Origin: Marinobacter sp. es.048
Lineage (GTDB): Bacteria; Pseudomonadota; Gammaproteobacteria; Pseudomonadales; Oleiphilaceae
Assembly (NCBI RefSeq): GCF_900188435.1
Contig: NZ_FYFA01000002.1
Coordinates: 1,550,001-1,614,000, forward strand
Reading direction: 5' to 3'
DNA: 64,000 nucleotides
A program made the translations under genes and the position numbers. The notes below the pieces were generated by a model, which ran no database searches, was not told where the DNA came from, and saw only the letters and a program-made list of their open reading frames with translations. Of the stretch, positions 1 through 5,351 are shown piece by piece (within the stretch, counting starts at the first letter, position 1; each line of letters begins with the position of its first letter).

Positions 1-1
1 T

Positions 2-250
2 GGAAAAACGAAAACATATGCGTCTTCATCAGATCCTCATGAAAACCTAAGAATAAAAGCTTCTGACCCAGTTTTTAGCCTATTTTTCACAACAGGGGAG
101 ATCAGCAGAAACGCAAAGGCCTTGATGGAACGTGCGGGAGTCATTTGGATGGATGGAAAAATGCTTTCTGCATTCATAGCAGACAGAAGCCCAATTGATA
201 TTACAAAGCTAACCAAAAAGAAAGAGTTTATTGATTGGATACAATCGTAG
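2..250 (+). CDS. Mrr-like restriction endonuclease, C-terminal part only
   Basis: An open frame runs from the left edge to TAG at 248-250 (82 residues, no start inside the window). The part around FFTTGEISRNAKALMERAG followed by a VIWMDGKML stretch resembles the end of the Mrr-type catalytic domain, where a TTxxF/I-S..A segment precedes an aliphatic-x-DG strand. Enzymes of this family cut modified or foreign DNA. The base composition is AT-rich and the neighbours are accessory genes, fitting a defence gene on an island. The call rests on motif resemblance over a short stretch; the catalytic residues themselves lie outside the window. Confidence 0.5.
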   Translation, partial: GKTKTYASSSDPHENLRIKASDPVFSLFFTTGEISRNAKALMERAGVIWMDGKMLSAFIADRSPIDITKLTKKKEFIDWIQS

Positions 251-266
251 GATTTCGTAAATTTAA

Positions 267-392
267 TCTGAAAAGAACAGATTCATTTTAAAAGAAGACG
301 GCCGCATTAATTTTAAGGGCGACGTAAATGCCTTCAACGTAGAGTTAGGAGACGTAGTTATGCCTGAGGGGGATCATAGCGGTCAGGTCTGA
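267..392 (+). other. short protein-like open frame without a clear start
   Basis: After TAA at 264-266 a frame of 41 codons runs to TGA at 390-392. It reads like protein (contains LKEDGRINFKGDVNAFNVEL) but has no ATG, GTG or TTG near its beginning. It overlaps the 3' end of the minus-strand NYN gene by 35 bases. It may be the tail of a decayed gene or chance. No function can be assigned. Confidence 0.2.
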
Positions 393-972
393 CAATTTTC
401 TTCCCACCGTTTAAAGTTATCTCTTTAGGGAGGAGGTTACGATTTACCTTCCCTTTCGGGATTTCATACGCAGCTTGTAAAGCTCGAGCGCGCCCCATCC
501 GCTTGGGCGGAGCAACCACAAAAATGTTTTTACCGGGAACACATGATCGGATGGTTCTAACTGGGGGCAGCAAGTCACTATCGGCGCTTATGAGAATGGC
601 CTTATCAAACTTGTCTTGAAAAGCATCCGCCACCATTCGTACTGCAAGGTGAACATCGGTTTCCTTCTCCTCCCAAGCTGGTGAAGTGTTCTTACAACCT
701 TGGCAGTAAACGGTTTTCCGTTTAAAAATTCCCAAATGGACAGTAACACCCTGAGCTTCTAAGGCCGCCACATACCTCTCGTGCCGACGATGCCGCTTTG
801 GGTTGGCCGTGTAGTACGCCGAGAAATAATTGACAGCCTCTAGGGTGTCGCCATCCTTGAGAAGATCTTTGCAGAGAGACCAAAGATCCAGCCATTTGAG
901 ATGCGGACTGCCCAAATCGTCAATGGCATGGTAGAGATTAAATCCATCTATATAGGCGACAACCCTGGCCAT
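358..972 (-). CDS. NYN-domain (PIN-like) ribonuclease, LabA/DUF88 family
   Basis: The 204-residue protein is a single NYN domain, a PIN-like metal-dependent RNase fold. Visible features are the first strand YIDGFNLY (residues 7-14, acidic D9), KETDVHLAV (acidic residues near 103-106) and ISADSDLLP (D131, D133), which together give the usual acidic metal site. A C-x2-C pair (C90, C93) sits in the insertion before the second acidic motif, a likely half zinc ribbon. The start ATG at 972 follows GCAGGAAGAGAG at good spacing. Directly upstream are a Rho-independent terminator and a structured leader (985-1120), so expression needs read-through. RNase activity is inferred from the family; a role in defence or as a toxin is inferred only from context. 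Confidence 0.85.
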   Translation of the reverse strand: MARVVAYIDGFNLYHAIDDLGSPHLKWLDLWSLCKDLLKDGDTLEAVNYFSAYYTANPKRHRRHERYVAALEAQGVTVHLGIFKRKTVYCQGCKNTSPAWEEKETDVHLAVRMVADAFQDKFDKAILISADSDLLPPVRTIRSCVPGKNIFVVAPPKRMGRARALQAAYEIPKGKVNRNLLPKEITLNGGKKIVRPDRYDPPQA

Positions 973-990
973 AAGCTCTCTTCCTGCAAT

Positions 991-1016
991 AAAAAAGCCG
1001 CGACAAGCGCGGCTTT
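991..1016 (-). terminator. intrinsic terminator of leader unit 2, just before the NYN gene
   Basis: On the minus strand a 9-bp stem AAAGCCGCG/CGCGGCTTT with a 5-base loop runs into TTTATT. It lies between the leader and the NYN ribosome site, so it would end most transcripts before the ORF. Confidence 0.75.
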
Positions 1017-1048
1017 GTCTGCTTGGGCGAACCCAAACAGGGGGATAT

Positions 1049-1068
1049 AAAAAAGGCTTTTCAGCCTT
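1049..1068 (-). terminator. intrinsic terminator of leader unit 1
   Basis: On the minus strand the stem AAGGCT/AGCCTT with a GAAA loop is followed by TTTTATAT. It is short (6 bp) but has the U run of a Rho-independent terminator, and lies inside the leader RNA of the NYN gene. Confidence 0.55.
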
Positions 1069-1126
1069 ATCTAACGGGCGAACCCGTTAGGGGGAAACGC
1101 CTCCGCATTGCTGCGGGGATGTGTGT

Positions 1127-1154
1127 ATCTTAGTCTTACTGACAGTATTGTCAA
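1127..1154 (-). promoter_or_regulatory. sigma-70 promoter for the leader RNA and NYN gene
   Basis: On the minus strand a perfect -35 TTGACA (1149-1154) is followed after 16 bases by TAAGAT (1127-1132). A start about 7 bases further, near 1120, falls right before the first hairpin. The -35 is embedded in alternating TGACA/TGTCA half-sites (1140-1162). Confidence 0.65.
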
Positions 1155-1317: not shown

Positions 1318-1563
1318 TGCATATTCCGGCCCATCGTGAACATCCATTCCGGACGAACGTGAACACCTATTCTGGTTTAACGTGAACAGTCATTCCGGTC
1401 GAAGATGAACACTTTCCGGTGGTTTTCCGGAATCAGTGTTCACCATGCCGGAATCGGCGTTCACGTTCCCGGAATTGGTGTTCACGTTCAACCAGAATCC
1501 TTCTTAACGCATTGTTTATTCAACCGTTTGCTACTCTGGTTCCTTTTTTTGGGGACCAGGGTC

Positions 1564-3105
1564 ATGGCAGCAAAGAGAATTCCAATGCGCAAAATCAGAG
1601 AATTGCTTCGCCTGAGGCTGGAAGCCGGACTCTCGATCCGGCAGATCAGCGCCAGCACCAAGACCAGTGTCGGAGCCATCCAGAAACTCTTAGCCCGGGC
1701 CGATACCCTGGAGATCACCTGGCCATTGCCAGAGGACCTGGACGATGGCCGCCTGGCAGCCATGTTCTATCCCGGCTCCGATCCCACCTCGTCCGCCCGC
1801 TATCAGGTACCGGACTGGGCGACCGTCCATCAGGAACTCAAACGCAAAGGCGTGACCAAGCAGTTGCTGTGGGAGGAATACACCGCACAGTATCCCAACC
1901 GGTGTTACAGCTACTCTCAATACTGTGACCGCTTCCGGCACTGGCAAAAGCAGCAAAAGCGCTCCATGCGCCAGATCCACAAGGCCGGTGAAAAGTGCTT
2001 CATTGATTACTGTGGTCCCACCGTACCGATCATTAATCCGCAAACCGGTGAAATCCGCACGGCTCAGGTGTTTGTTGCCGTTCTGGGTGCCTCCAATTAC
2101 ACCTACGCCGAAGCCACCTGGAGCCAGGGGTTGCAGGACTGGCTGCTGAGTCACGTGCGCACCTTCGAGTACTTCGGCGGTGTTCCGGAAATGGTAGTGC
2201 CGGACAATCTGCGCAGCGGTGTCAGCAAAGCCTGTCGGTACGATCCGGACCTGAACCCCAGTTACCAGCAACTGGCGGCGCACTATCAGGTCGCGGTGCT
2301 ACCAGCACGGCCCTACAAGCCCAAGGATAAATCCAAAGCGGAGGTGGGGGTGCAGATCGTTGAACGCTGGATCCTGGCCCGGTTGCGCCACCACACCTTC
2401 TTCACCCTGGCCGACCTGAATCAGTGCATCCGGTCCCTGCTGGAAGACCTGAACAGCCGGCCGTTCCGGCGGCTGCCGGGCAACCGGCAGGAGGCCTTCA
2501 AGACGCTCGACCAGCCAGCCCTGAGGGCACTACCCAAGCACCCCTATGAGTACATCGAGATCCGGCGTTGCCGGGTCAACATCGATTACCACATTGAGTT
2601 TAGTCAGCATCACTACTCGGTGCCGCACCAGTACGTTGGAGAGCAAGTGGACATCCACGCCAGTGAGCGACTGGTACAGATCTACTTCCGGCAGCGACAG
2701 ATCGCCAGCCACCCACGCAGCCATCAGTACGGCATCACTACCGAATCAGGACACATGCCCACCCGCCATCAAAAACAACAACAGTGGTCGCCCGGACGGC
2801 TTAAGAACTGGGCCCGGGACATCGGGCCAGACACCCTCGTCTGGGTCCGTGATCGGCTGGAGGAGCGGGAGCATCCGGAACAGGCTTACCGGGTCTGTCT
2901 CGGGTTGCTCAACCTGAGCAAGGAGTACCCCAGTGAGCGCCTGAATGCCAGTTGCCGTATTGCCAACCGCGAAGGCCTGGACCGACTGAAACACATCAAG
3001 GCCATTCTCCGGAGCAACCGCGACAAGCTGCCAGAACAACTGCCCTTGCACACAGAACTGCCCCAGCACCACGAGAACATCCGTGGCCCGAAGAGCTTCC
3101 ACTAG
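1564..3105 (+). CDS. istA: IS21-family transposase IstA
   Basis: The protein catalyses strand transfer of the element. From ATG 1564 it has 513 residues. An N-terminal helix-turn-helix (residues about 8-45, LSIRQISASTKTSVGAIQKL) is followed by an rve-type DDE domain with D148 (FIDYCGP), D214 (VVPDNLR) and E260 (KSKAEVGV), all present. The frame is open from 1405, but the extra residues are encoded by the terminal repeats, so MAAKRIPM is preferred. istB follows after 9 bases, the normal family order. Confidence 0.93.
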   Translation: MAAKRIPMRKIRELLRLRLEAGLSIRQISASTKTSVGAIQKLLARADTLEITWPLPEDLDDGRLAAMFYPGSDPTSSARYQVPDWATVHQELKRKGVTKQLLWEEYTAQYPNRCYSYSQYCDRFRHWQKQQKRSMRQIHKAGEKCFIDYCGPTVPIINPQTGEIRTAQVFVAVLGASNYTYAEATWSQGLQDWLLSHVRTFEYFGGVPEMVVPDNLRSGVSKACRYDPDLNPSYQQLAAHYQVAVLPARPYKPKDKSKAEVGVQIVERWILARLRHHTFFTLADLNQCIRSLLEDLNSRPFRRLPGNRQEAFKTLDQPALRALPKHPYEYIEIRRCRVNIDYHIEFSQHHYSVPHQYVGEQVDIHASERLVQIYFRQRQIASHPRSHQYGITTESGHMPTRHQKQQQWSPGRLKNWARDIGPDTLVWVRDRLEEREHPEQAYRVCLGLLNLSKEYPSERLNASCRIANREGLDRLKHIKAILRSNRDKLPEQLPLHTELPQHHENIRGPKSFH

Positions 3106-3114
3106 GACACCACT

Positions 3115-3855
3115 ATGAGCACCATCCAGACCCTGACGCGACTGAGAGACCTGAAGCTGGGCGGCATGGCCGCCGCCCTTGAACATCAACAAAACCAGCC
3201 GGGCACCTATGACGAGCTGTCGTTCACCGAACGCCTGGAATTATTACTCGAAAGAGAGTTCCAGACCCGGGAACACCGGAAACAGGATCGCCTGGTTCGC
3301 CAGGCCCGCTTCAAACTCCGGGCCTCGGTCCAGGACATCGACTACCAGCACCCGCGCAACCTCAAGAAAGCGCAGGTGGCCCAGTTGGTTCAGACAGACT
3401 GGCTGGAACGTGGCCAGAACCTGCTGATCACCGGCCCCTGTGGCAGTGGCAAAACTTACCTGGGCTGTGCAGTGGGGCACCAAGCCTGTCTGAACGGCTT
3501 CAGTGCCCGGTATTACCGGATCTCCCGATTACTGCTGGAACTGACCCAGGCCAAGGCCGATGGCACCTACCAGAAAAACCTCAGCCAACTAGCCAAAGTA
3601 AAGCTGCTGATCCTGGACGACTGGGGGCTGGAAGCTCTGAAACCTGCACACCGGAACGACCTGATGGAGATCATGGATGACCGTCACGGCACTCACTCGA
3701 CCATGATCATCAGCCAGCTACCCACCGATCAGTGGTACGCCGCCATCGGCGATAACACTCTGGCGGACGCCATTCTGGATCGGCTGATGCACAACGCTCA
3801 CCGCTGGACTCTGAAAGGGGAATCGATGAGAAAGCGACTTCAGGAAATTGACTGA
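3115..3855 (+). CDS. istB: IS21-family helper ATPase IstB
   Basis: The 246-residue AAA+ ATPase, related to DnaC, assists IstA in target capture. Walker A GPCGSGKT is at residues 107-114 and Walker B LLILDDWG at about 164-171. Length is normal for the family. It forms an operon with istA and ends about 100 bp before the right terminus. Confidence 0.95.
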   Translation: MSTIQTLTRLRDLKLGGMAAALEHQQNQPGTYDELSFTERLELLLEREFQTREHRKQDRLVRQARFKLRASVQDIDYQHPRNLKKAQVAQLVQTDWLERGQNLLITGPCGSGKTYLGCAVGHQACLNGFSARYYRISRLLLELTQAKADGTYQKNLSQLAKVKLLILDDWGLEALKPAHRNDLMEIMDDRHGTHSTMIISQLPTDQWYAAIGDNTLADAILDRLMHNAHRWTLKGESMRKRLQEID

Positions 3856-4379: not shown

Positions 4380-4673
4380 ATGATGAAAAGCCTTTTCGCG
4401 AGGCTTGCGGCCACCATTTCGGAGCTGAAAGCTAATCCGAACGAGGTGCTCAACCAGGCTAACGGCGAACCGATTGTGATACTGAGTCACAACAAGCCCA
4501 GAGCCTACATGGTGCCTGTCGAGACATTCGAACAGATGCAAGAGCAACTCGAGGATTACCGGCTTCTGCAGGAGGCTCGCAAGCGTATGGATGACGAATC
4601 AGTACCGGTGAGCATCAATGAGCTACGAGCTGCAATTCAAGAAAAAAGCTCTGAAGGAATGGAACAAGCTTAG
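4380..4673 (+). CDS. StbD/Phd-YefM-family antitoxin
   Basis: The 97-residue protein has the N-terminal Phd/YefM DNA-binding fold: TISELKANPNEVLNQANGEP followed by VILSHNKPRAYMVPVETFEQM, the pattern of StbD-type antitoxins. The C-terminal part, charged and probably flexible, would bind and neutralise the downstream RelE-like toxin; such antitoxins repress their own promoter. Two adjacent ATGs (4380, 4383) follow GAAGGAC. Its 3' end overlaps the toxin frame by 56 bases. Confidence 0.9.
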   Translation: MMKSLFARLAATISELKANPNEVLNQANGEPIVILSHNKPRAYMVPVETFEQMQEQLEDYRLLQEARKRMDDESVPVSINELRAAIQEKSSEGMEQA

Positions 4674-4881
4674 CCCGTCTATCCGGGCGGAGTTCCTGGC
4701 CATCCTGGAGCGACGCCTGGAAAACCCCAGAATCCCGAAGCACAGCCTTCGCGGCGATCCCGACCTATACAAGATAAAGCTTAGATCCGCTGGTTACCGG
4801 CTGGTATATCACGTCGATGATGGCGTGGTTGTGGTAACAGTGATTGCTGTTGGTCGTAGAGATACGATATACAAGGCTTAG
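4618..4881 (+). CDS. RelE/StbE-family toxin (mRNA interferase)
   Basis: The 87-residue protein matches the RelE/ParE fold: YELQFKKKALKEWNKLSPSI at the N-terminus, then a conserved L.G.....YKIKLRSAGYRLVYHV segment and a C-terminal VIAVGRRDTIYK strand carrying basic residues. RelE toxins cut mRNA in the ribosome. The start ATG lies within the antitoxin gene, coupling translation of the two. Length and residues look complete, so it is probably functional. Confidence 0.92.
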   Translation: MSYELQFKKKALKEWNKLSPSIRAEFLAILERRLENPRIPKHSLRGDPDLYKIKLRSAGYRLVYHVDDGVVVVTVIAVGRRDTIYKA

Positions 4882-5306: not shown

Positions 5307-5351
5307 CTCATAATCCCTTGGTCGCTGGTTCGAGTCCAGCTGGGCCCACCA
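5307..5351 (+). other. 3' half of a CAU-anticodon tRNA, island attachment site
   Basis: The sequence starts at a CTCATAA anticodon loop, continues with TTGGTC, a perfect T-arm (GCTGG-TTCGAGT-CCAGC), the acceptor strand TGGGCCC and ACCA. No D-arm or matching 5' acceptor strand lies upstream, and the bases before the loop do not pair with the anticodon stem. This is what an integrase using a tRNA 3' end leaves at the far end of an island. The source is probably tRNA-Met or tRNA-Ile2 (CAU). The rest of 5179-5623 carries no gene. Confidence 0.75.

Follow-up and report, generated by a model that had tools for sequence, protein, structure and literature searches.

Comparison of a 64,000-nucleotide stretch of DNA from Marinobacter sp. 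es.048 (the window) with related loci indicates that the HEC-09 nuclease, a protein with an NYN domain, has in most cases a small RNA of two hairpins as its partner. We consider it reasonably likely that the two form a mobile two-component module, in which a HEC-09 NYN/PIN-like ribonuclease is accompanied by its own short structured RNA acting as a type III-like antitoxin. The computations support an independent and conserved RNA gene with fixed geometry and covarying stems, linked to HEC-09 and not to the other NYN genes tested, and they further support the conservation of the catalytic residues, a location on mobile elements and the existence of phage copies of the RNA without an NYN gene nearby. 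Among the roles that an earlier sequence-only reading of the locus had offered for the RNA, namely antitoxin, substrate or attenuator, the putative antitoxin fits best, and the RNA is probably an off-switch of the nuclease.

In the window the whole locus lies on the minus strand, and the sequence and coordinates bear out what had been described, namely two units of the same design behind a promoter, with the NYN start after the second terminator. The sigma-70-type promoter TTGACA-16-TAAGAT (1127..1154; TTGACA at 1154-1149, TAAGAT at 1132-1127; 10/12 matches) contains the perfect TTGACA reported. The first hairpin of the transcript, CCGCA-GCAA-UGCGG at ~1100..1118 (fold, by eye), is preceded by a C-rich tail; the description of the leader, right for the two units, had left it unmentioned, and it is perhaps an incomplete first unit whose terminator hairpin is absent. 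RNA unit 1 (1051..1100) consists of a CCCCC tail, a UUCG-capped first hairpin (1071-1090), an AU linker and a terminator hairpin with U run (1053-1068), and unit 2 (993..1049) repeats this order with a CCCCC tail, a UUCG-capped hairpin at 1019-1040, an AC linker and a terminator hairpin with U run at 994-1016. The nuclease gene follows at 358..972 with its ATG at 972, encoding a NYN (PIN-like) protein of 204 aa that PADLOC places in the HEC-09 family. As had been claimed, the stems differ and still pair: counted from the fold, 5/8 comparable pairs of the two first hairpins differ with pairing kept. The RNA of positions 973-1120 folds at -62.8 kcal/mol, compared with -43.4 +/- 3.7 kcal/mol for 200 dinucleotide shuffles (z -5.2), of which 0/200 were as low in energy. 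Covariance model R2, built without window unit 1 and with window unit 2, matched unit 1 at 23.7 bits, outside its training set, and unit 2 at 50.4 bits, inside it. In the whole 4.06-Mb genome only these two units scored above 21 bits, two further weak matches reaching 20.1 and 17.7 bits, and the 299 genomes of the phylum gave no R2 match beyond the window's own genome. At the gathering score Rfam gave no match in the window; across 20 related loci the families RNAI and PAGEV alone passed it, both away from the NYN-linked RNA, and any other matches were sub-threshold.

The window protein matched Pfam NYN (PF01936) at 3.5e-12 and the PADLOC profile HEC-09 (PDLC04163) at E 3.6e-61, its residues 1-199 covering positions 1-202 of 203, while PHROGs returned a family of unknown function. 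Its AlphaFold2 model (pLDDT 94.9) has as best solved relative in the PDB the uncharacterised protein 2qip, beyond which the best 50 matches listed held only unrelated enzymes and no ToxN entry. It keeps D9, N12, D106, D131 and D133; the set D9, N12, E102, K103, D106, D131 and D133 is kept in 86/88 homologue representatives, and the two that do not keep it in full (L010 and L115) are broken genes. The same genome encodes a second NYN protein (G000:C1:1444074-1444478) with a better PF01936 match. Of 7998 candidates scored in a profile search, at least 7168 protein clusters matched the family at E <= 1e-10. For HEC-09, which we infer from its name to be a one-gene candidate, PADLOC gave neither a description nor a partner RNA. 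The sequence-only reading had known of no described system with this family and layout; we likewise found no described NYN/RNA equivalent in the papers searched, but the protein family is already listed as the defence candidate HEC-09. The accessible part of one paper names "Hma-embedded candidates", several of which, including HEC-06, are antiviral, and leaves HEC-09 unnamed (PMC12988326). The only paper found to name HEC-09 counts it, in the text available, among the systems that correlate with phage susceptibility, not resistance, in Pseudomonas, and gives no RNA for it there (PMC12447246).

The association of the RNA with HEC-09 was evaluated on 136 loci, drawn from collections of genomes, viruses and plasmids, in which the start of NYN could be read; they were reduced to 88 representatives at 70% identity. 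A strict detector, which required a hairpin, a gap of at most 10 nt, a second hairpin and a T run on either strand of the 250 nt upstream, with a cut of -18 kcal/mol, was positive in 57/88 representatives; its rate was 1.8% among 3520 shuffles and 8.8% among 387 other ORFs of the same loci. Among 30 NYN genes from relatives (LabA/DUF88-like and others), placed outside HEC-09 by their sequence starts, it found two units at <= -18 kcal/mol and none at <= -20 kcal/mol. The spacer between the hairpins measured 2-3 nt in 41/58 units, while its distribution in shuffles was flat. A relaxed RNAfold detector (80/88 positive versus 123/528 shuffles and 136/396 other ORFs) separated poorly; it was rejected as the main test and kept as a complement. 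In 30 more loci from the phylum of the genome that carries locus L014, one of them L014 itself, an upstream unit was present in 22, a count made under a more relaxed rule without control; one of the 30 loci had just 20 nt upstream. The leader is carried by homologues in several phyla, as the check proposed with the original description had asked.

For finer tests we assembled a set of 72 loci covering 70/88 representatives, 51 found automatically and 21 by eye. From 59 automatic units, 8 that were misplaced or doubtful were dropped (L009, L024, L034, L056, L110, L115, L122 and L136), L110 being re-entered by eye; additions by eye numbered 23, and the close relatives L025 and L027 were removed. 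No unit is listed for 18/88 representatives, 13 of these judged by eye only, and a wider scan of L039, L069, L104 and L116 found no unit, yet their conserved NYN residues are kept. In the common design, a single-stranded 5' tail rich in C leads into hairpin 1, and a linker mostly of 2-3 nt connects this to the terminator hairpin 2, giving an RNA of ~50-80 nt per unit, with one to three units per locus and a single one in most. Tandem structural units were recognised by eye in the window, L036, L041, L045, L056, L061, L088 and L136. The three units of L045 differ in stem sequence and share one geometry, with two 8-bp stems, each closed by a 4-nt loop, joined through a 2-nt linker; Tandem Repeats Finder reported no repeat in this locus, and the arrangement of L056 resembles it. 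A scripted tandem-array count of 10/72 was discarded, because several of its "second units" seem to lie inside upstream coding sequence.

The helices of the RNA covary, an outcome that had been made a check of the original proposal, and in three sets 0/500 shuffles reached the covariation score. In hairpin 1 of the window type (16 sequences), 6/7 pairs show changes on both sides and 81% of cells are paired, compared with 63% after shuffling; one of five measures, the number of further pair types, was unremarkable in this set (134/500 shuffles as high). For both helices of a second subtype, represented by 14 sequences of other phyla, 10/16 pairs are doubly changed and 95.5% are paired, with 0/500 shuffles on all five measures. 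The third set, 51 distinct viral orphan RNAs, is 95.8% paired and has a covariation score of 0.194 versus 0.072, in an alignment fitted to the model, which is a bias in favour of covariation; on two other measures 6/500 and 12/500 shuffles were as high. RNAalifold, tried on sets A2 and A4, returned few pairs because MAFFT puts the hairpins out of register.

Several features mark the RNA as a gene separate from NYN. A promoter whose -10 element ends 8-22 nt before hairpin 1 was found in 29/72 loci, compared with 2.1 +/- 1.4 in shuffles. The RNA runs in line with NYN in 61/72 loci and divergently in 11/72; L014-L016 carry a second RNA copy behind the NYN stop codon, and L079 has none upstream and instead a convergent RNA with hairpin 1 from 61 nt behind the stop. 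Since promoters are enriched and the RNA is divergent in 11/72 loci and sometimes downstream, we regard it as a separate RNA gene and not an attenuator, and on grounds of orientation we reject attenuation as its general function. Distances between the RNAs track those of NYN (Mantel r 0.573, permutation maximum 0.093, n=71). An antisense action, in which the 5' tail would pair with the start region of NYN, was rejected: pairing did not exceed permutation over the 72 loci (-5.49 versus permuted -5.55 kcal/mol, p 0.59), nor did it among the 61 in-line loci (p 0.92). The 11 divergent loci did show stronger pairing for matched than for permuted pairs (p 0.008), which we treat as a small-sample result.

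The NYN-RNA module of the window sits in an inovirus-like prophage inserted in tRNA-Met. A 45-bp exact copy of the 3' part of this tRNA on the plus strand (5307..5351) is the likely right attachment site, the tRNA itself lying beyond the window. Between the tRNA and this repeat the prophage encodes, besides the module, an integrase, a Zot-domain protein, a CI/S24 repressor, a ParB-like protein (PADLOC PDC-M38A), a Mrr-type nuclease, an IS21 element and a Phd/ParE pair. The ParB-like protein (PDC-M38A, PD-Lambda-5_A-like) followed by the Mrr-type nuclease forms a second defence-like pair in the prophage (L163:15298-17251), located left of the window start with its end overlapping window positions 1-250. 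A Phd/YefM antitoxin and ParE toxin pair lies near the right prophage end (4380-4881), and the IS21 istA/istB insertion (1405-3855) separates it from the RNA promoter. In the other 144 relative genomes searched the NYN protein was absent at E <= 1e-15. In E. coli, three plasmid versions of NYN occur in 27 records, all of them plasmids (27/27), with no chromosomal place, and 306 plasmid records hold a relative at E <= 1e-10. The main recognisable cargo of six inspected plasmids of 3.5-4.3 kb is the NYN gene. On small enterobacterial plasmids (L131, L133-L135, L140) an HTH gene lies divergently beside NYN, and in L131, L134 and L140, where it was tested, this gene is DnaD_N-like; the RNA region of these plasmids has, by eye, a different and longer build.

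The RNA also occurs in cells where NYN is not intact. Model R1 gave 17 matches in 17 genomes and records, 16 of them at >=44 bits within ~1 kb of an NYN gene; the other, L157 at 26 bits, has no NYN near, resembles an ordinary terminator and was rejected. Across 301 genomes from the phylum to which L014's genome belongs, R1 found 11 matches, of which 5 adjoin NYN, 2 lie 2.3-2.6 kb from it and 4 have no intact NYN within their 1.5-kb flanks, two of these forming a tandem pair. As NYN is present in 69/301 of these genomes, R1 covers one RNA subtype only. In L166:1359-3000 this tandem RNA pair stands beside a HEC-03A/HEC-03B operon and a C-terminal NYN remnant; in L111:600-1320 two tandem RNAs precede an ORF with a NOV_C domain, whose start, MTRVIAYI, resembles that of NYN; and in L010 NYN is broken and the two-hairpin unit complete. 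Retention of the RNA where NYN is broken or replaced (L010, L111, L166) is what an antitoxin outliving its toxin would look like.

Furthermore, viruses (IMG/VR) were searched for the second subtype by means of an exact pattern that covers its tail and the core of hairpin 1. This pattern occurred in 99 viral stretches, of which 80 were read (L234-L313), and 80/80 of these scored with the whole model at 31-67 bits; tail and core are common to them by choice of pattern, while the resemblance in linker and hairpin 2 lies beyond it. No NYN gene lay within 600 nt in the 80 stretches, and 4/80 had a weak NYN match (~20 bits) 1.3 kb off. The viral orphan RNA is mostly present once per stretch, and 16 long viral contigs (55-177 kb) each hold one clear copy, one of them with a weak second match of 27 bits. 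A search of the 16 for NYN came back empty; their records may be fragments, and the search had no positive control among them. The closest ORF upstream shares the strand of the RNA in 74/80 stretches and, in the larger clusters, ends from a few to ~20 nt before it; in 2 stretches an ORF spans the RNA. By protein clusters, the upstream genes are 24 ribonucleotide reductase-like, 11 gp32-like and 7 IMP dehydrogenase-like, these names resting on one representative per cluster via PHROGs or Pfam. That each contig has a single copy, and that the genes before it differ, speaks against a generic terminator. In viruses the window-type core occurred in L027 only, adjoining its NYN gene, and the phage collection, queried with 64 nt of phage RNA, yielded nothing at E 0.01.

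In the favoured antitoxin reading, the RNA would be made in excess from its own promoter and would bind the nuclease by shape, keeping it off. In in-line loci part of transcription would pass the terminator to give the NYN mRNA. Phage infection or plasmid loss would halt the RNA supply, and the freed nuclease would cut cell or phage RNA. The copies carried by phages would be decoys. Several points count against this reading: the four representatives in which no unit was found, the predominance of single units, RNAs without intact NYN near, the differing RNA of the enterobacterial plasmids, the overlap of the relaxed detector with its controls, the one flat covariation measure and the correlation of HEC-09 with phage susceptibility. 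A wider proposal, which we put forward tentatively and hold to be doubtful, is that the loci represent a widespread undescribed defence class of RNA antitoxins and NYN toxins that large phages counter with orphan 3' UTR RNA decoys behind phage genes, for example those for gp32, ribonucleotide reductase and an IMP dehydrogenase-like protein; there, the RNA would have been missed by sequence tools because it is recognised by shape.

The same linkage, covariation and independent RNA gene would be equally expected if the RNA were a cofactor, guide or sensor needed for NYN activity instead of an inhibitor, and the computations do not separate an activating from an inhibiting RNA. We nevertheless judge this to be unlikely: a guide is at odds with stem sequences that vary freely, persistence of the RNA where NYN is lost or broken is easier to reconcile with an antitoxin, and viral copies stand without an NYN gene near. 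The viral copies raise the converse possibility that the element is primarily a conserved 3'-UTR RNA of large phages, the module's copy serving to let competing phage RNA alter the NYN complex as a trigger. The orphan RNAs, with one clear copy per long contig behind differing phage genes, and the linker and second hairpin shared by phage and NYN RNAs beyond the searched core are in keeping with such an origin, but the match concerns one RNA subtype, and the window-type core in viruses stands beside NYN in its one occurrence, L027, which makes this explanation improbable.

A cis-acting leader, in which attenuator and terminator set NYN expression only, is suggested by the in-line RNA of the window and of 61/72 loci and by the terminator-like hairpin at its end; the divergent orientation in 11/72 loci, the downstream copies and the viral copies without NYN near leave it very improbable, and the attenuator that the sequence-only reading had entertained is disfavoured by this divergence and by RNAs placed downstream of NYN elsewhere. 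Ordinary terminators standing before the gene by chance would account for the form of hairpin 2, and a hairpin pair at -18 kcal/mol also occurs with 8.8% of other ORFs; given the fixed spacer, the promoter right before hairpin 1, the covariation of both helices and the rarity of the unit before other NYN genes, we allow them a very slight chance. Extremely improbable, finally, is a type I-like antisense RNA whose 5' tail would base-pair to the ribosome-binding site of NYN: the tail is C-rich, the start region often G-rich and the 11 divergent loci show stronger matched pairs (p 0.008), but neither the 72 loci (p 0.59) nor the 61 in-line loci (p 0.92) show an effect.

HEC-09 is a large family whose listing among the defence candidates includes no RNA, and an overlooked RNA partner could mislead both annotation and tests. 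If the antitoxin reading is true, RNA antitoxins would extend to NYN nucleases. The phage copies would then offer a direct and testable case of RNA-based counter-defence, and the 3.5-5 kb E. coli plasmid versions ease experiments. No such NYN-linked RNA was described in the literature titles and abstracts searched, a search that lay outside bioRxiv and most subscription papers, and "NYN" did not occur in the main text of the RNA-discovery papers compared; a description elsewhere is possible.

Among known systems, PADLOC HEC-09 is the same protein family as the window NYN, listed with no RNA partner. LabA/DUF88-like and other NYN proteins have PF01936 in common with it, and the RNA unit is rare before them (2/30). 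Type I toxin-antitoxin systems differ in that the 5' tail of the NYN-linked RNA shows no excess pairing with the NYN start region (72 loci). The AbiF/RCd22 system of Clostridioides difficile, as far as the accessible part of its description goes, is likewise prophage-borne, with a toxin unrelated to ToxN and two RNA motifs before the gene, and its RNA is reported to neutralise AbiF directly, in cis and in trans (PMC12373285); it differs in its Abi_2/AbiD/F-family protein and its RNA motif, and the effect was measured there while it is inferred for NYN (PMC12373285). The type III systems ToxIN, CptIN and TenpIN, in the text available to us, share the combination of a nuclease gene with a small structured RNA and the plasmid or phage setting, and phages can escape ToxIN via pseudo-ToxI repeats (PMC5086642). 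The window shows the order promoter, RNA, terminator, nuclease; among the 72 NYN loci the RNA is in line in 61 and a promoter was recognised in 29, and some loci have tandem units. In contrast to type III systems, the nuclease here has an NYN/PIN-like fold and not the ToxN fold, the NYN-linked RNA is sometimes divergent or downstream, the unit sequences of L045 are too divergent for Tandem Repeats Finder, and the module has two plain hairpins per unit, mostly in a single unit instead of repeats.
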